A DNA stretch of 64,000 bases from Halomarina litorea (GTDB lineage Archaea > Halobacteriota > Halobacteria > Halobacteriales > Haloarculaceae). The notes below the pieces were generated by a model. It saw only the letters and a list, made by a program, of their open reading frames with translations. It did not search any database and was not told the origin of the DNA. The stretch spans positions 2,439,655-2,503,654 of the forward strand of contig NZ_CP100448.1 in the NCBI RefSeq assembly GCF_024227715.1, in the 5' to 3' direction. Shown in pieces: positions 12,467-19,695 of the stretch. Position 1 is the stretch's first letter. Each line of letters starts with the position of its first letter. A program made the translations under genes and the position numbers.

Positions 12467-12787
12467 TCAGTCGGTCGCCCCCTCGTCCGCCGTGCGGTCG
12501 CCGAGCGCCGCCCGCCGCCGCTGGTAGGCGTACCAGAAGGTGAGCGACGCGAGGACGTAGACGGCGGCGGCCGCGGCCACCAGTCCCGCCAGCCCGACCG
12601 TCGACGCGACGACGTCGGGGAGGAACACCTGCACGAGCCCCGCCGACCCGAAGACGAGGACGGGGAGCGACGCGGTGATGTAACTGACCGCCGTCCCCCG
12701 CGTGAGCTGGCGCTGCCCGCAGTACGGGCAGTTCGACACGTCGGGACCGATGGGTTCGTCGCACGCGACGCAGGGGAGCCGCGACAT
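12467..12787 (-). CDS. Zinc-ribbon protein with two membrane helices
   Basis: 106 residues. ATG 12787 is chosen since it gives MSRLPCVACDEPIGPDVSNC; the frame continues upstream but into promoter-like sequence. The N-terminal CVAC...CPYCG is a zinc ribbon, followed by two hydrophobic helices (VLVFGSAGLVQVFLPDVVAS, AGLVAAAAAVYVLASLTFW) and a basic-acidic tail. Function unknown. It sits 46 bp upstream of the TorD gene on the same strand and could belong to that operon. Confidence 0.7.
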   Translation of the reverse strand: MSRLPCVACDEPIGPDVSNCPYCGQRQLTRGTAVSYITASLPVLVFGSAGLVQVFLPDVVASTVGLAGLVAAAAAVYVLASLTFWYAYQRRRAALGDRTADEGATD

Positions 12788-12859
12788 GAGTGTCAGACAC
12801 ACGCCCGACGTATTGAATGTTCGGGAAATTTGTATTTCTTCGGATCGGACAGCCACCGG
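12788..12859 (-). promoter_or_regulatory. AT-rich promoter region upstream of the zinc-ribbon gene
   Basis: On the minus strand this gap reads AAGAAATACAAATTTCCCGAACATTCAATACG; the AATACAAATTT segment (about 12822-12838) is much AT-richer than its surroundings and is a plausible TATA/BRE area, though its distance to the start (about 40 bp) implies a short leader. Confidence 0.4.
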
Positions 12860-13276
12860 TCAGGGGACGCGCGTCCCCGAGACGCGGACCGTGACCGCCT
12901 CGACGAACTTCCCGTTGTTGTCGGCCGCGGCGAGCGTCGCGGTGCCCCGCTGGGGGAAGAGGACGCCCGAGACGGTCGTCTGGGTCGGGTCCACCCTCCC
13001 CGCCCAGACGCCGCTCCCGCTCTGGGAGGTGACGACGAGTTCGCGGATGGCCCCCTGTCGGGTCGACTCCCGGGTCAGCGAGACGCTCGCCTCGACGAGT
13101 CCGTTGACCCACGGTTCGCTGACCGAGACGTCCGTGAACACGTTCGACCCCGAGAGGTCGGCCTCGACGCGCGGGTTCACCGTGATACACCCGCCGAGGC
13201 CGGCGCTCGCCGCGGCCACGCCCGCGAGGACTGCGCGACGGGACAACCGCCTGTCGGCGCTTTCGGTCTCTCGCAT
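12860..13276 (-). CDS. Tat-exported lipoprotein, unknown function
   Basis: 138 residues from ATG 13276. The N-terminus MRETESADRRLSRRAVLAGV carries twin arginines, followed by a short hydrophobic stretch and the lipobox LGGC, so it should be exported folded by the Tat system and anchored by a lipid on the cysteine, the usual haloarchaeal route. The mature part is a beta-rich domain of the kind seen in many haloarchaeal surface proteins (VSEPWVNGLVEASVSLTR, TVRVSGTRVP). Binding partner unknown. Confidence 0.75.
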   Translation of the reverse strand: MRETESADRRLSRRAVLAGVAAASAGLGGCITVNPRVEADLSGSNVFTDVSVSEPWVNGLVEASVSLTRESTRQGAIRELVVTSQSGSGVWAGRVDPTQTTVSGVLFPQRGTATLAAADNNGKFVEAVTVRVSGTRVP

Positions 13277-13463
13277 GCACAGGGGGACTCGCGGCGGCGC
13301 GATAACCCTTGGCTTCGTCCCCCGGAACCGACCCCTCCACGACCGGTGCGAAACCGGCGCCAAACGATTCGTTAAGCCACCCGCTGACCGGTCGCAGTCG
13401 GCGGGACGTGTCACGCCCAATTCTAGGACAATCTCTAATCTACTTCAGTCATGTTTCACAGCC

Positions 13464-13814
13464 AATAAGGACATCTGCGAGTGCGTCTGGGAGAAGACGC
13501 CCCGGAAGAAGCCCACCTTCGAGTTCAAGCGGGACAAGAACCGGGCGAAGGTGCGCAACCTGAAGCAGAGCCACGCCGAGACGGTGTGGGGCTTCTACGT
13601 CGACTGCGACGGCAACCAGCACAAGTACGTCGACGAGCAGAACAAGGGGAGCTACCCGCTCTACGCGAAGCGAAACGGGAAGCACTACGTCCTCCGGCGG
13701 ATGGTCGTCCTCTCCTCGTCGCCCGGCAACGGCTACTGCCGGACCTACGAGACCAACCCGTACTACGACGGCATCCGCGGGAAGTACTGCGAGGGGAACG
13801 ACATCTCCCGGTAA
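13464..13814 (+). pseudogene. Cys-containing basic protein fragment without a start codon
   Basis: The frame ending at TAA 13812-13814 encodes about 115 residues with clear protein character (KDICECVWEKTPRKKPTFEF ... TYETNPYYDGIRGKYCEGND), low in the Arg/Pro/Ala bias of antisense frames and with six cysteines. No ATG, GTG or TTG lies between the preceding AT-rich non-coding stretch and the first conserved-looking residues; the only nearby ATG (13451) is in another frame and stops after five codons. I do not recognise the family. It looks like a 5'-truncated or frameshifted gene at the border of the glycan island. Confidence 0.45.
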
Positions 13815-13859: not shown

Positions 13860-14603
13860 TCAGTAGTTGCGGAACTGGAACAACCGACGACGCAGACCGT
13901 CGTACCGGCCTTCGGCGATTGACTCGTAGACGAGGGCGCTCGCTCCGAAGAACGTGTCCGTGAGCAGGTCTCGCAACGCCGCATCGGCCTCGGGATCCGC
14001 CGATACCACCTCGAAGAGGTCGTTACAGCGGTCGACGTAGTACGTGGAGAATGTCCCACTCTTGTCGAACACGCAGTGTGCGACGACGTGGACGAGTTCG
14101 TCGGGACGAGCCGGGACCCAGAAGCCGTCGTTCCCGTAGCGCCGGCGGCGGTCGAAGAACTGTGCCTCGACGTCGGGGTGGGCGCGAACGCGTTCGCCGC
14201 TGGACGGCGAGACGTACGCGAGGTGGTTCCGCAGGTCGAGCATCAGGTCGCCGCGGTACCGTTTGACGTTCCGATACCCGTGTTTGTAGGCCGGTTCCCC
14301 CTTCCCCCGACGGACGACCAGCTCCGGGTTGGCGATGGCGATGGCAGCCGCCTCACGCGGGTGGCGGGCCGCGCGCACGGCCATCTGTGCGACGTTGTGG
14401 ACGGTCGAGCCGTTCCCGTCGTCGAACCCGAGGGAGGAACACACGTCGAGCATCGTCGCGAAATCACCGGGTGGCGCGTAGATGTCGACGTCTCCTCTGA
14501 CGGTGTCCGGGAGGTCCTCGAATTTCCGCCCGACGACGTACTCGACGTCGGCCGCCTCCAACGCCCGGAACAGTCGCCGAAGTGTCCGAGACTCGTCACC
14601 CAT
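13860..14603 (-). CDS. Nucleotidyltransferase-fold protein of a glycan-type cluster
   Basis: 247 residues from ATG 14603, which overlaps the stop of the upstream small gene (TGATG). The N-terminus has a helix LRRLFRALEAADVEYVVGR, then GDVDIYAPPGDFATML, whose Asp-x-Asp on a strand after a glycine-containing turn matches the catalytic pattern of the MNT-type nucleotidyltransferase fold. The rest is helical with DLRNHLAYVSPS and RPDELVHVVAHCVFDKSGTFS. Exact substrate unknown; related proteins are often annotated next to polysaccharide genes. Last gene of a coupled three-gene set on this strand. Confidence 0.55.
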   Translation of the reverse strand: MGDESRTLRRLFRALEAADVEYVVGRKFEDLPDTVRGDVDIYAPPGDFATMLDVCSSLGFDDGNGSTVHNVAQMAVRAARHPREAAAIAIANPELVVRRGKGEPAYKHGYRNVKRYRGDLMLDLRNHLAYVSPSSGERVRAHPDVEAQFFDRRRRYGNDGFWVPARPDELVHVVAHCVFDKSGTFSTYYVDRCNDLFEVVSADPEADAALRDLLTDTFFGASALVYESIAEGRYDGLRRRLFQFRNY

Positions 14604-14845
14604 CACCACACCTCTGTCGGGATGTCGTCGGGGTCCGTGATGCTGCCGTCGGGGTCTTTCACCTCCCGAAGTCGGTCGCGGGCGGCCAGCAGGACGGTAA
14701 CGAAGTGCCGGAACTCCTCTTCGGACATGTCCATGCGGACGTCGCCAAGGTGCCAGTGGATGGTGCCGCCGGCGTTGTACTCGACGCGATGGGCGGTCCC
14801 GGTCGAGAACTCGAAGGCCGCCAGTTCCTCCTCAACGATTCCCAT
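14603..14845 (-). CDS. Small protein, sister of the next upstream small protein
   Basis: 80 residues, unknown family. Core GGTIHWHLGDVRMDMSEEEFRHFVTVLLAARDRL: a strand with alternating His, a second strand, then an amphipathic helix. The same pattern (AVHLHLRNFRLEMRVEDFET) occurs in the gene immediately upstream, so the two are paralogues. The stop overlaps the nucleotidyltransferase start by one base and the start overlaps the upstream gene by 14 bases. Confidence 0.65.
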   Translation of the reverse strand: MGIVEEELAAFEFSTGTAHRVEYNAGGTIHWHLGDVRMDMSEEEFRHFVTVLLAARDRLREVKDPDGSITDPDDIPTEVW

Positions 14846-15053
14846 CGAGCGCCTCCAGTGCGTCGGCCATGTTCTCGGTCAGTGTCTCGAAGTCTTCGAC
14901 GCGCATCTCCAGGCGGAAGTTCCTGAGATGGAGGTGGACGGCCTCGCCGATGTTGTCGTCGACGACGAACTTTGTCGGCGTCTTGTCCGGTGCGGGGTCA
15001 ACCTCGTCCCGAACGAGGGGGTAGGCGAATACGTTCACGAACACCGACACCAC
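14832..15053 (-). CDS. Small protein, first of the coupled trio
   Basis: About 73 residues if the GTG at 15053 is used (GTG 15050 is equally possible; the frame remains open to 15170 but the extra part reads like AT-rich leader sequence). Core NIGEAVHLHLRNFRLEMRVEDFETLTENMADAL resembles the 80-residue neighbour. Family not recognised. It begins the three-gene set whose members overlap by 14 and 1 bases. An AT-rich promoter-like segment precedes it. Confidence 0.55.
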   Translation of the reverse strand: MVSVFVNVFAYPLVRDEVDPAPDKTPTKFVVDDNIGEAVHLHLRNFRLEMRVEDFETLTENMADALEALDGNR

Positions 15054-15289
15054 TTTCGAACGAATAGTAATTCTGCCCGTTACGGGACCAGCAACGGCGA
15101 CCACGTGATAGTGATACTTCGACCTCTCATGATCAGCCAGATAACATATAATTAGAGGAGAATTTCCCAACTCGTTGAATTATATAACAGTCCTTTGAGG
15201 TTTTCAATCCTCCTTTGCTCGTGACCATCATAATATCAATGATTTTACATTTGGTCACTAACTATGGTAAGATGTTTCTACCGAGAGAC
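15054..15289. promoter_or_regulatory. AT-rich divergent promoter region
   Basis: About 236 bp far poorer in GC than the rest of the window. On the minus strand TTATATGTTATC (around 15140-15152) can serve the small-protein trio. GAATTATATAACAG (about 15177-15190) contains a palindromic TATATA core usable in either direction, and GATTTTACATTTGG (about 15240-15253) lies 37-50 bp before the asparagine-synthase-like ATG. No gene is seen. Confidence 0.5.
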
Positions 15290-17170
15290 ATGGTCGGCCT
15301 CTGTGGTACTATCGGACGGACCGAATCGAATGCCCTCCTGAGCGCCCAATCAATCGCCTACCGAGGTGACGAACTCATCACGGGGCTGCACCGGCAGCAT
15401 GTGGACGCCTACAGCGTTGAACACCAGACGCGGCCGGGGACCAGCGACCGACCCGGCGCCGCTGGTGATGTCGAGGTGTTGGTCTGGGGTGACCTATACG
15501 GCCACGAACGCGACGGGCGGTACGTCCCCCGTCGTGAGAGCCACCCGACAGCGACGACCGCCGAGTATCTCGCCTCGCTGTACACACGCTACGGGTTCGG
15601 CTGTCTCGCCGGGTTGAACGGCGAGTTCGCCGCTGCCGTCTACGACGCCGGAACCGTCTCACTGGTCACCGATCGCCTCGGGTCTCGGGCCGTCTTCTAC
15701 GCGACGGCCGACGACGGTTCGACGGTGTTCTCGACCGCGATCCAGTCGCTCGCGCTTGACGAGCGCCTCGACCTCGAGTTCGAGACGGACTATCTCGTGG
15801 AGTACCTCACGTACGAACGCGCGTTCGGGACGAAGACACCACTGGCCGGCGTCGAGAAGGTACCGCCCGGGTCGGTCCTCACCATCCACACGGCGACCGG
15901 GGCGACCGAGACCGAGCGGTACTGGTATCCGGAGTACGCCCCCAAGAACGTCCCGCGGGAGTACTTCGTGCGGGAACTCGCACGACGCTTCCGGGCCGCG
16001 ATGGCGGACCGAATGGCCGATCGTGTGGACTACGGCGTCATGTTGAGCGGCGGAGTCGACTCGCGACTGCTCGTCGGTGTCGGGTCGCCGGGCGTCGCCT
16101 ACCACCTCACGGGGTGGGAGAGCGAGGAGACGAGGACCGCTCGCGAGGTGGCGCGCTTGGCCGGGTGGCCGTTCCGACCACTGTGGCGCGACCGGGACTA
16201 CCAGGCACGTGCGCTCGAACGGACGCCGTTCGTCTCGAACTACATCGGTGGGTTCGACGAGGGACACGCGACCGGGTTCCTCGAACAGGTCAGACAGGAG
16301 GTCGACGTGATGCTCTCCGGACACCTCTCGGACACGCTGTTCGCGGCGAACTACCTCCCCCGCAAGTCCCAGTCGGTTCCGCTCCCGGGCTTCGGCTCGT
16401 TCGACCTCCCGATTCCCGCCGACGTCGAGACTATCGAGGAGTTCATCGACCAGCGGGAACTGCCCGCTCCCCCGTACCTCAGCGAGGACGTCCCCATCCC
16501 GCGAGAGGTACTCGAACGAAACGTCGTCGACACCGACGACGGCATCGACCACCACGGCGTCCACTATCGGTCGGTCGCCGACGCCGTCCTCTGTGATCAG
16601 TACTACCCACGCTCGAACGCGAAACCGTTCTTCGAGTACACGACCGAACAGTACCTTCCTCTCCGAAAGCCGTTCATGGACAACCGGCTCGTCGACCTCC
16701 ACCTGCAGATTCCCCGCCGGTACCTCGTCTCGGGGAACCTCATCGGGGGCGCGATGCGCCTACTAGCGCCCGAACTCGGCCACGTGCCCGACAACAACAC
16801 GGGGGTCGATCCGCGTCATCCCTTCCTGCTCCACTACGTGGGGAAGCTGTGGACACACGTCCGGCGGACGTACCTCCCGACCGACACACCGCCGGAGCCA
16901 CACCTCTCGAACGGGCCGTGGCCCGACAACGCGGCCCTCATCCGGACGCACAGTTTCGTCGAGGACGCGCTGTCGTCCCACGAGGCGATCGCCGAGCAGA
17001 TGGCCGAACTCGACGTCGACGGCATCTACCGAACGTACCGGGAACACCTCGATGGAGCGGACCGCACACAGCACCTCTACTCCCTCCTGACGTTCCTCGC
17101 CATGCCCCTGACCGACCACCTCGTCAGCGCCAGCACCGTCGTCGAAGAGGAGCTGACCAGCAGACCGTGA
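15290..17170 (+). CDS. Asparagine-synthase-like protein with atypical N-terminus
   Basis: 626 residues. ATG 15290 is chosen because it gives MVGLCGTIGR, the class-II glutamine amidotransferase start; sequence further upstream is AT-rich and promoter-like. The N-terminal domain (to about 200) includes NGEFAAAVYD and DRLGSRAVFY; the synthase domain has the ATP pyrophosphatase loop SGGVDS at residues 253-258 and RKPFMDNRLVDLHLQIP. In true enzymes Cys2 is the nucleophile; here the only candidate is Cys5, so glutamine-dependent activity is doubtful. Such proteins in surface-polysaccharide clusters are thought to amidate sugars or peptides. The flippase GTG overlaps its stop. Confidence 0.8.
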   Translation: MVGLCGTIGRTESNALLSAQSIAYRGDELITGLHRQHVDAYSVEHQTRPGTSDRPGAAGDVEVLVWGDLYGHERDGRYVPRRESHPTATTAEYLASLYTRYGFGCLAGLNGEFAAAVYDAGTVSLVTDRLGSRAVFYATADDGSTVFSTAIQSLALDERLDLEFETDYLVEYLTYERAFGTKTPLAGVEKVPPGSVLTIHTATGATETERYWYPEYAPKNVPREYFVRELARRFRAAMADRMADRVDYGVMLSGGVDSRLLVGVGSPGVAYHLTGWESEETRTAREVARLAGWPFRPLWRDRDYQARALERTPFVSNYIGGFDEGHATGFLEQVRQEVDVMLSGHLSDTLFAANYLPRKSQSVPLPGFGSFDLPIPADVETIEEFIDQRELPAPPYLSEDVPIPREVLERNVVDTDDGIDHHGVHYRSVADAVLCDQYYPRSNAKPFFEYTTEQYLPLRKPFMDNRLVDLHLQIPRRYLVSGNLIGGAMRLLAPELGHVPDNNTGVDPRHPFLLHYVGKLWTHVRRTYLPTDTPPEPHLSNGPWPDNAALIRTHSFVEDALSSHEAIAEQMAELDVDGIYRTYREHLDGADRTQHLYSLLTFLAMPLTDHLVSASTVVEEELTSRP

Positions 17171-18660
17171 TTGGGGTCGTCAGGCGGTTGCTCGCCCGAC
17201 TCACCCCCGATGGTGACGTTGGCGAACGGACCGTCAAGAGCGGCATCTGGGTCGGCGCGATCAACGTCTCCGACCGTGTGCTCCAGTTGCTGATGGTTAT
17301 CGTACTGGCGCGACTGCTCGGGCCCGCCGCCTTCGGGCTGATGGGCGTCGCCCTGCTCGCGCTCTCGGCGCTCCAGCGGTTCTCCCAGATCGGCTTCGAG
17401 GATGCCCTCGTCCAGCGAATCGAAGACGACGTCGACCACATGCTCGACACGGCGTGGACGATACAGGTTGTCCGGGGACTGGCTATCGCGGCCGTCGCCA
17501 TCCTCGCCGCGCCTCTCCTCGGCACCCTCTTCGACGAGCCGGCGGCGGTCGACCTCGTCCGCGTCGTCGCGCTCGCACCCGCTATCCTCGCGTTCCGGAA
17601 CCCCGGAATGGTGTACCTGCGGAAGGACCTCGCCTTCCACCGCCAGTTCGTCTACACTGCCTCGGGGACGCTCACGCGTGTCACCGTCTCCATCGGGTGG
17701 GCGCTCGTCTCGCCGACGGTGTGGGCGCTCGTCGCGGGGTTCATCGCTTCGAACGCCGTCATGCTGGTCGTCTCCTACGTCATCCACGACTACCGACCCC
17801 GACCGGGATTCGACCGCGGCCACGCCAGCGACCTGTTCGGCTACGGGAAGTGGATACTCGGCTCGGGCGTCGTCAACTTCCTCTACAGCGAGGGTGACGA
17901 CGCCTTCGTCGGTGTGTTCCTCGGCGTCGCGTCGCTCGGCCTCTACCAGGTCGCGTATCGCGTCTCGAACGCCCCCGCGACCGAGGTGGCACAGCTCGTC
18001 TCCCGGGTGATGTTCCCCGCCTACTCGAAGGTACAGGACGACATCGAGCGACTTCGACGGGGGTTCCTCACGACGGTCCAGCTGACGACGTTCGTCTCCA
18101 TTCCGTTCGGGGTCGGTCTCATCGCGGTCACCCCACAGTTCGTCGCCGTCTTCGGCGAACAGTGGGAGCCGATGGTCCGTCCGCTGCAGGTGCTGACGCT
18201 CTACGGGATTCTCCGGTCGTGTCGTTCTCCGACCACGCCTCTGTTCAAGTCCGTGGGGCGGCCGGACCTGCTCGCGAAGCTCCAGACCGGCAAGCTCCTC
18301 CTACTCGCCGCGTGTATCTACCCCGCGGCCGACCAGGCGGGGCTGACCGGTGTCGCGCTCGTCGTCGTCGGTACGGAGGTGCTCGCGCTTCCCGCCGCCC
18401 ACGTCCTCGCCCTTCGGCTCACGGGTGCGCGTGCGCGCAGCATCATCAGCCTGCTGGGCTTCCCAGTTCTCGGGAGCGCGATGATGGGAGCGACGGTTGT
18501 CTCGCTCGCGTCCGCGCTCCCGACGACGAACCCCCTGGTGGAACTCGCCGTGTTGGTCCCGACGGGAGTCGTCGTCTACGTCGCCGCGATGCTGCTCGTC
18601 GACAGGGGCTCGGGGTACGGTGTCGGGGGACTCCTGCGGCGGGTCGTCGCCTCGATGTGA
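17167..18660 (+). CDS. Lipid-linked oligosaccharide flippase (Wzx/MOP type)
   Basis: 497 residues starting GTG 17167, four-base overlap with the preceding stop. A hydrophobic protein with about 12-14 membrane helices; the start VKSGIWVGAINVSDRVLQLL followed by ARLLGPAAFGLMGVA and the mid-protein YSEGDDAFVGVFLGVASLGLYQVAYR segment are typical of RfbX/WzxC-like polysaccharide exporters. It should move a lipid-linked glycan across the membrane. Operon with the asparagine-synthase-like gene. Confidence 0.88.
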   Translation: MIGVVRRLLARLTPDGDVGERTVKSGIWVGAINVSDRVLQLLMVIVLARLLGPAAFGLMGVALLALSALQRFSQIGFEDALVQRIEDDVDHMLDTAWTIQVVRGLAIAAVAILAAPLLGTLFDEPAAVDLVRVVALAPAILAFRNPGMVYLRKDLAFHRQFVYTASGTLTRVTVSIGWALVSPTVWALVAGFIASNAVMLVVSYVIHDYRPRPGFDRGHASDLFGYGKWILGSGVVNFLYSEGDDAFVGVFLGVASLGLYQVAYRVSNAPATEVAQLVSRVMFPAYSKVQDDIERLRRGFLTTVQLTTFVSIPFGVGLIAVTPQFVAVFGEQWEPMVRPLQVLTLYGILRSCRSPTTPLFKSVGRPDLLAKLQTGKLLLLAACIYPAADQAGLTGVALVVVGTEVLALPAAHVLALRLTGARARSIISLLGFPVLGSAMMGATVVSLASALPTTNPLVELAVLVPTGVVVYVAAMLLVDRGSGYGVGGLLRRVVASM

Positions 18661-18678: not shown

Positions 18679-19695
18679 CTACTTCCGCGCGATGAGTTCG
18701 ACGGCGTGGCCCGCCCGGAGGAGGTACGCCTCGACGGCATCCATGTCGGGAAGGTTGAGGCGGTGGCCGTGCCAGCTCTTCCAGTCGTTGAGCCCCGCGG
18801 CCGTCTCGTGGACGACCGTCGACGCGGGCTCGAAGCCGTTGTCGCGGAACAGGGAGACGACGGCACGCAGTTCCTCGTCGCTGAGGTTCAGGGGGTGGAG
18901 CTCGACGTACACCACGGTCGGACCGGCCGATTCGAGCACCGGGCGAAGCTGGTCGAGGACGACGGTTTCGTATCCCTCCAGGTCCATGCGGACGACGTTC
19001 ACCTCCTCGGGTGCGAGGCCGAAGCGGCCGAGGAGATCGGCGGCGCTCAGCATCTCGACCGACACCGACCCCCCTTCGTGAGCGCGACCGTCGCCCCCTT
19101 CCGGTCGGACCGAGTGTTGGTTCGAGAGGTCGCTGAGGTAGAGCGTCGCCGGACCGGTGACGTCGCCGACGGCACAGCGGGCAACCGTCGTCCGGTCCTC
19201 GAAGCCGTTCAGCCGGAGGTTCCGTTCGAGGAGGTCCGCGTTCTCGGGGGTCGGCTCGACGGCGTAGACGTGGGCCGACGGACCGAGCGCCGCCGCCTCC
19301 AGAAGGCTGAAGTAGCCGATGTTCGCACCGATCTCGAGGGCGACAGGCCGGTCGGTCTCCCCCGCCAGCCGTTCGAGTTCGCGGCGGAACGCCCGCGAGG
19401 AGGCGTACTCGTGGATCCCGAACGCGAGTAGCGTCCGCGAGATGCCGGGGTCGGCGGTGTCGAGCCACATCCGGTAGTCGTGAACGGGGGCGACGACGTA
19501 TCGCCCGTCGGTCCGGTCGGCGTACCGCCGCCAGTAGCGGTTCTCGCCGCCGACGAACTCGCTCGCGTATCCGGCGGCCTGAGCGAAGCGGCCGGCCGAG
19601 AGGAGCCGATAGAACTTGCGCGCAACCAGTCCGACAGCAGTGGGAACCCGAGCGGGTGCCCTCGTGACCGACCGGAATCGCCTGGTGAGAGTCAT
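18679..19695 (-). CDS. FkbM-family SAM-dependent methyltransferase
   Basis: 338 residues. The Rossmann SAM motif VALEIGANIGYFSLLEAAAL and the adjacent VYAVEPTPENADLLERNLRL are diagnostic of the FkbM family, as is MDLEGYETVVLDQLRPVL followed by VYVELHPLNLS. Members methylate sugar or other hydroxyl groups, often on surface glycans, which fits the neighbouring flippase, although it is transcribed convergently to it. The palindromic TATA-like ACTATAGT at 19735-19742 lies about 40 bp upstream. Confidence 0.88.
   Translation of the reverse strand: MTLTRRFRSVTRAPARVPTAVGLVARKFYRLLSAGRFAQAAGYASEFVGGENRYWRRYADRTDGRYVVAPVHDYRMWLDTADPGISRTLLAFGIHEYASSRAFRRELERLAGETDRPVALEIGANIGYFSLLEAAALGPSAHVYAVEPTPENADLLERNLRLNGFEDRTTVARCAVGDVTGPATLYLSDLSNQHSVRPEGGDGRAHEGGSVSVEMLSAADLLGRFGLAPEEVNVVRMDLEGYETVVLDQLRPVLESAGPTVVYVELHPLNLSDEELRAVVSLFRDNGFEPASTVVHETAAGLNDWKSWHGHRLNLPDMDAVEAYLLRAGHAVELIARK

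Follow-up and report, generated by a model that had tools for sequence, protein, structure and literature searches.

One of the questions that this locus raises is what two small proteins, which no family model recognizes, are doing in genes that overlap each other and the gene of a predicted nucleotidyltransferase-fold protein. The three genes, called here A, B and C, lie in a 64,000-nucleotide stretch of Halomarina litorea DNA, which is called the window. The answer that we favor, with a probability of roughly 0.45, is that the three proteins belong together as subunits of a single unit for glycan tailoring, with A and B as an adaptor on which the tail of C docks. The trio would then be a component of glycan biology that goes under the label 'hypothetical protein' in annotation.

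Organization of the Locus

All three ORFs lie on the minus strand and are transcribed in the order A, B, C (Table 1). Overlaps of 14 and 1 bases had been described for them, and both were found with all ORFs present: the last base of A is 14832 and the first of B is 14845, while the end of B and the ATG of C both fall on 14603. The longest ORF of C opens with a GTG at 14609. The overlap between A and B is exactly 14 bases in 10 of the 12 haloarchaeal loci tested, the window not being counted. The initial annotation had also drawn a fixed stoichiometry from the overlaps, which does not follow, as gene overlap is no proof of stoichiometry. The start that it gave to A (GTG 15053, 73 aa) is likely too early, because in the relatives the first residue lines up with the GTG at 15038; judged by this alignment, A probably starts there and is five codons shorter. 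The window is haloarchaeal, the closest relatives found being Halobacteria. The GC content is 0.58–0.60 between positions 14500 and 16000, against 0.65–0.76 on both flanks, as in an acquired island.

Table 1. Positions of the trio, its details and its neighbors in the window.
Feature	Position	Strand	Remark
ORF convergent with C	12702..13814	+	no Pfam match
Gene C	13860..14603	-	247 aa; predicted nucleotidyltransferase fold, GDVD motif (D38, D40), model pLDDT 91.5
Codons of the last four residues of C, F-R-N-Y	13863..13874	-	terminal Tyr in 51/52 distinct C proteins
Small gene B	14603..14845	-	80 aa; sister of A by profile
A/B overlap, 14 bases	14832..14845	-	position conserved
Small gene A	14832..15038	-	68 aa; profile homologous to that of B
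Asparagine-synthase-like protein	15215..17170	+	PF00733, PF13537; divergent neighbor; true start may be inside
Polysaccharide flippase, Wzx type	16849..18660	+	PF13440 E 6e-78; true start later than the listed ORF
FkbM-type methyltransferase	18679..19695	-	PF05050 E 1e-16

Fold and Catalytic Motif of C

When the window trio was compared with Pfam and NCBIfam, C alone gave a match worth following, and a weak one: it reaches PF14907 (NTP_transf_5) with 23.2 bits (E 6e-5), below the gathering score of 31.2 bits. The bacterial C of L042 is above this cut-off with 31.8 bits and that of L065 below it with 20.8 bits. These scores point to C as a distant relative of NTP_transf_5, an uncharacterized family with no named function and no tie to A, B or a terminal tyrosine. 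The PDB held no relative of the window C by sequence.

The structural model of C was built from 36 sequences (pTM 0.84). Foldseek placed nucleotidyltransferases on top, none below E 0.003, and VIA-align gave MenT1 (Z 14.1 over 171 residues, 3.6 Å), ANT(2'')-Ia (Z 12.0) and FKRP (Z 6.7); 25 of 1000 chains reached Z >= 8, and the matches listed are nucleotidyltransferases or are so described. Model, Foldseek and VIA-align agree with the nucleotidyltransferase fold that had been claimed for C, and it is shown at the level of the predicted structure that this fold is of the polymerase-beta type, as in the MenT, ANT and MNT enzymes. MenT1 and ANT(2'')-Ia share the fold with C at about 10% identity and work with other partners in other contexts. 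With MenT1 as the best structural neighbor and with overlapping genes, C could be a MenT/AbiEii-like nucleotidyltransferase toxin and A and B its small antitoxins. In the excerpt of a Tn7 cargo table that we cite, Pfam14907 stands in the toxin–antitoxin section, under RelA-SpoT, with several nucleotidyltransferase models (PMC8649781). Yet the aminoglycoside enzyme ANT(2'')-Ia comes close to MenT1 in score, none of six proteins matched the PADLOC models of anti-phage defence, A is fused to enzymes and the context is one of glycans, so that we regard a toxin–antitoxin system as very improbable.

The DxD motif of C consists of D38 and D40 in the window. In classic nucleotidyltransferases a G[GS] motif precedes DxD; position 26 of C is R or K in 35 of 36 proteins and position 27 is N, G, K or R, and the classic G[GS] is not seen in this register. 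In the C of L044, N and G replace both aspartates and the tail is kept, which is what one would expect if C were a catalytically dispensable scaffold, a pseudo-enzyme within the same complex. As each aspartate is kept in 35 of the 36 aligned C proteins, this option is quite improbable.

The C-Terminal Tail of C

The tail of C is the strongest signal in the system and had been overlooked in the initial annotation. Of 52 distinct C proteins, 51 have a tyrosine directly before the stop codon, and [FYH]xxY fits 50 of the 52; the third residue before the end is F or Y, once H and once W. Among the 36 aligned C proteins this tyrosine is the sole invariant column, ahead of even the aspartate pair. 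The exception is the C of L077, in whose genome (G073) no A is detectable and no B was found at the search threshold; the loss of the tyrosine alongside the missing A is suggestive, as one event and not as proof. This orphan C (L077:1402-2259) lies near an ORF that looks like a transposase by eye. In the model of C the pLDDT falls to about 70 in the tail from 96 in the adjacent residues, which makes it the least certain part of a well-predicted C-terminal region, as expected for a segment that would bind elsewhere.

The invariance of the terminal tyrosine, beyond that of the catalytic pair, could also mean that C is a carrier, whose tyrosine is covalently nucleotidylated, phosphorylated or glycosylated by an A-borne enzyme and which acts as a primer or shuttle for a glycan part, presumably in a manner loosely like glycogenin. 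The tail, flexible in the model, and the fusion of A to a ParB/SerK-fold part and to glycosyltransferase-like parts (see below) are consistent with such a role. However, a docking motif explains the same conservation, and the F or Y at the third position from the end is also kept, as in docking motifs; we therefore consider a carrier unlikely. Its wider consequence, a Tyr-tethered carrier or primer for glycan parts that is common to archaea, bacteria and their viruses and is modified by an enzyme delivered by A–B, is doubtful in our opinion. The almost invariant tyrosine offers a simple and decisive handle on whether the tail docks or is a modified carrier.

A and B as Sister Families

In our preferred reading, the tail of C would dock on a pair of A and B. 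The two small proteins had been called sisters on the strength of a common strand pattern, and the quoted motifs are exact (IHWHLGDVRMDM followed by EEF, and VHLHLRNFRLEM followed by EDF). The family signature of A is MNVF..., [VI][ED]DN[VI]GE..[IV]H.H....R.[ED] and that of B is MGI[VI]..., [IV]E.N...IH.H; common to both is a core of [VI]E-x-N ... [IV]H-x-[HQ] ... R, followed by a helix that starts near [ED][FY]. A search with the single sequence of B found the A of the same genome only at E 0.076. Comparison of profiles gave 97.8% (E 1.2e-12) for the haloarchaeal families, with nine rows each, and 98.4% (E 7e-15) for the wider families (37 rows of A, 40 of B), against 0.1–0.2% for three of the four control pairs and 1.0% for the fourth. 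These profile comparisons bear out the earlier claim and show A and B as homologous small proteins which, to judge by sequence, are true sister families. Neither matched any model of Pfam, NCBIfam or PADLOC, and a known, unrelated family to which they could belong was not found there. In the PDB, a sequence search with profile A6 gave unrelated ATPases and L31e (best E 0.04) and one with profile A7 gave no relative.

In the model of the A–ParB protein of L046 (pLDDT 90.2) the A domain consists of four strands and a helix. Its residues 1–63 match best with Pur-alpha 3k44 (Z 4.0, rmsd 2.0, 57 residues), a value within the noise of the tool, and 8chu follows with Z 3.9, also near the noise. PUR repeats also pair, and it may be asked whether A–B is a PUR-repeat-like pair that binds nucleic acid, so that the module would be regulatory. 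The strand–helix order of A is like that of the Pur-alpha repeats and DUF3276, but the sequences do not support a homology of A and B to PUR/DUF3276: the profiles gave 0.3% for A and 0.1% for B. Fusions to glycan enzymes do not suggest regulation either, and we hold a nucleic-acid-binding role to be rather improbable.

Fusions and the ParB-Like Part

A is a modular domain that bacteria and viruses have fused to other enzymes, which the initial annotation had missed. In most non-haloarchaeal loci A carries a ParB-like part (28 rows aligned; absent in L057 and L065), and in L035 the order is A-ParB-GT9-GT2. The viral contigs L108, L110, L113 and L115 have a glycosyltransferase-like part joined to A, which was identified by eye from a DxD-like stretch; Pfam and PDB searches gave no confirmation of this part in L108-type contigs. 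In L109 the A-fused part had been taken for a kinase, also by eye; this was dropped after Pfam and the PDB came up empty.

B and C are fused in Haladaptatus (L025, 340 aa), and A and B stand in one ORF in G197 (L078:1082-1498), the second half of which matches the B profile weakly (E 0.1). Together with the C-terminal tyrosine, these fusions lend support to the proposal that the small proteins are a heterodimer partner of the enzyme; this support is indirect, and the complex itself is what we infer from it.

When the A-fused part of the L046 model was compared with known structures by VIA-align, the best 18 rows were all ParB, sulfiredoxin, Noc, KorB, PadC or free serine kinase, with middling scores (Z 5.2–7.2) alongside which nothing else ranks. 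From this model, the bacterial A-fused part is predicted to be of the ParB/Srx/SerK fold. By reading the alignment, the motif DG.HR was seen in 23 of the 28 fused A proteins and is missing in L042, L052, L055, L062 and L066. Fold and motif are shared with ParB, sulfiredoxin and SerK and with SbnI, for which the profile match is weak (E 0.4); the ParB/SerK-fold part is joined to the A domain in bacteria, but it is not in the window trio. Of 12 haloarchaeal loci, 7 have a haloarchaeal ParB-like protein close to the triad; its nearest relative in the window genome (G000:C1:620582-621472, E 7e-11) is about 1.8 Mb off. A common family for this protein and the ParB part of bacteria was considered, but the profiles do not support it (6%).

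Distribution and Co-occurrence

Another question is whether the trio occurs as such elsewhere. We collected 42 loci (L025–L066), 41 of them from a scan with A of 84,980 species genomes and one, L025, from a plasmid. The scan reached haloarchaea, Firmicutes, Bacteroidota, Proteobacteria, Treponema, Omnitrophota, a planctomycete and a Ca. ainarchaeum. Of these loci, found through A or B, 40 hold the complete trio, and the two incomplete ones (L041 and L048) are at contig ends; the C of L063 was located between B and A by a separate search. All eight viral contigs found with A in IMG/VR (L108–L115) have B, C and A in that order. The survey of neighborhoods thus speaks against a triad that does not co-occur elsewhere: it is kept together over archaea (haloarchaea and Ca. 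ainarchaeum), several bacterial phyla and viruses, and is not restricted to haloarchaea, a point absent from the initial annotation. The gene order varies between A-B-C, B-C-A, C-B-A and B-A-C, which argues against the mere inheritance of a frozen arrangement.

Most of these loci were selected by the A search itself, and the haloarchaeal reverse test alone is free of that bias. In this profile search of 293 genomes of the order, C (E < 1e-55) was found in 10 genomes and A in 9, each of which also has C; 19 of the 29 genomes that matched C had been dropped before the count as partial matches (E 5e-9 to 7e-6). B matched 15 of the 293 genomes, of which 8 (9 copies) were real after the loci were read; the other 7, with E from 3e-4 to 0.009, lay inside other genes or in other frames. 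By profile search the trio is absent from three further genomes of the window's genus, which makes it accessory. C was present in every one of 16 genomes searched whole, at a single site each except in G302, where one broken gene gives two C fragments. Among 250 genomes from the family to which the L057 genome belongs, B was found in 1, the query genome itself. The INPHARED phage records gave no match to a viral C, and a plasmid search for A–ParB gave one partial match, to the ParB part only.

The distance matrices of A, B and C are correlated over 35 loci (r 0.67–0.71, 0 of 5000 permutations) and over the 24 non-haloarchaeal ones (r 0.58–0.66, 0 of 5000). Over the 11 haloarchaeal loci A–B (44 of 5000) and B–C (82 of 5000) correlate weakly, and A–C is not significant (r 0.21, 725 of 5000). 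Shared species history can be the source of these correlations. Some copies are broken: in L060, C is split and A has lost its stop, the A of L009 has a frame break (both are Halorussus-type genomes), and the C of L057 lies in two frames.

Glycan Surroundings

The neighbors of the trio in the window (Table 1) agree with the glycan island that had been claimed, and most of the other loci are also beside glycan enzymes. With the ATG used, the first cysteine of the asparagine-synthase-like protein (MVGLCG) does not come second in the chain, so that its glutaminase part may be inactive. Among 107 flanking genes from 30 non-haloarchaeal loci we found GT9 (5), polysaccharide synthesis or flippase (5), GDP-mannose dehydratase (4), epimerase (4), GT2 (4), GT1 (4) and others, with overlapping matches. 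The next downstream gene in ten loci is GT9 in three, GT1 in two and GT2 in one; it is unrecognized in three and has only low-significance matches in one. In the viral contigs that were read, glycosyltransferase-like genes follow the trio, as viral glycan clusters. L025 lies outside any glycan cluster. In three Selenomonadaceae loci (L036, L037, L038) the trio is placed among the flagellar genes FliO, FliM and FliN, which suggests a role in flagellin modification.

A Possible Mechanism and Its Relation to Known Systems

The recurrence of the triad, the reverse test, the fusions, the terminal tyrosine and the glycan neighbors point toward one unit made of the three proteins. Against it stand the ParB-like relative at 1.8 Mb, the loss of DG.HR in 5 of 28 proteins, the loss of the aspartates in L044, the flagellar loci, L025 and the A–C correlation. 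In one possible mechanism for such a unit, a small adaptor made of paired A and B would receive the flexible end of C, [FY]-x-x-Y-COOH, and would place C beside a second enzyme. In most bacteria the second enzyme would be the A-fused part with the ParB/sulfiredoxin fold, which free-serine kinases also have, and in some viruses the A-fused glycosyltransferase-like part; in haloarchaea it may be encoded separately. The role of C would be to pass a nucleotidyl or phospho group on to a sugar of the surface glycan or to a substituent of that sugar, the exact chemistry being a guess.

The view that no system of this make-up has been described holds for the open-access literature, in which we found no paper on the trio and no system of this composition. 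The make-up of the trio, two families that no model covers with a nucleotidyltransferase-fold protein, appears new, and its chemistry may be conventional nucleotidyl or phospho transfer. A 2025 survey of ParB folds does not mention nucleotidyltransferase, capsule or polysaccharide, and has glycosyl once, in the reference list (PMC12704722). Two described systems are comparable in part, as far as the excerpts cited go. In the pseudomycoidin cluster the nucleotidyltransferase-like PsmN is linked to the addition of a hexose to a phosphorylated C-terminal Ser (PMC9266682); this is a lasso peptide cluster, A and B are absent from the passage, and PsmN is likened to C by description only. The Type A flagellin glycan of C. 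difficile (cd0241–cd0244) carries a phospho-amino-acid substituent and is made through a nucleotide-activated intermediate, with CD0242 described as similar to CTP:phosphocholine cytidylyltransferase (PMC10714395). CD0242 is likened to C by its description only. A minor observation regards phrog_17331, a PHROGs phage family of 477 positions with no function named, which weakly matches a viral B over 65 residues (E 4e-4) and is perhaps another B fusion.
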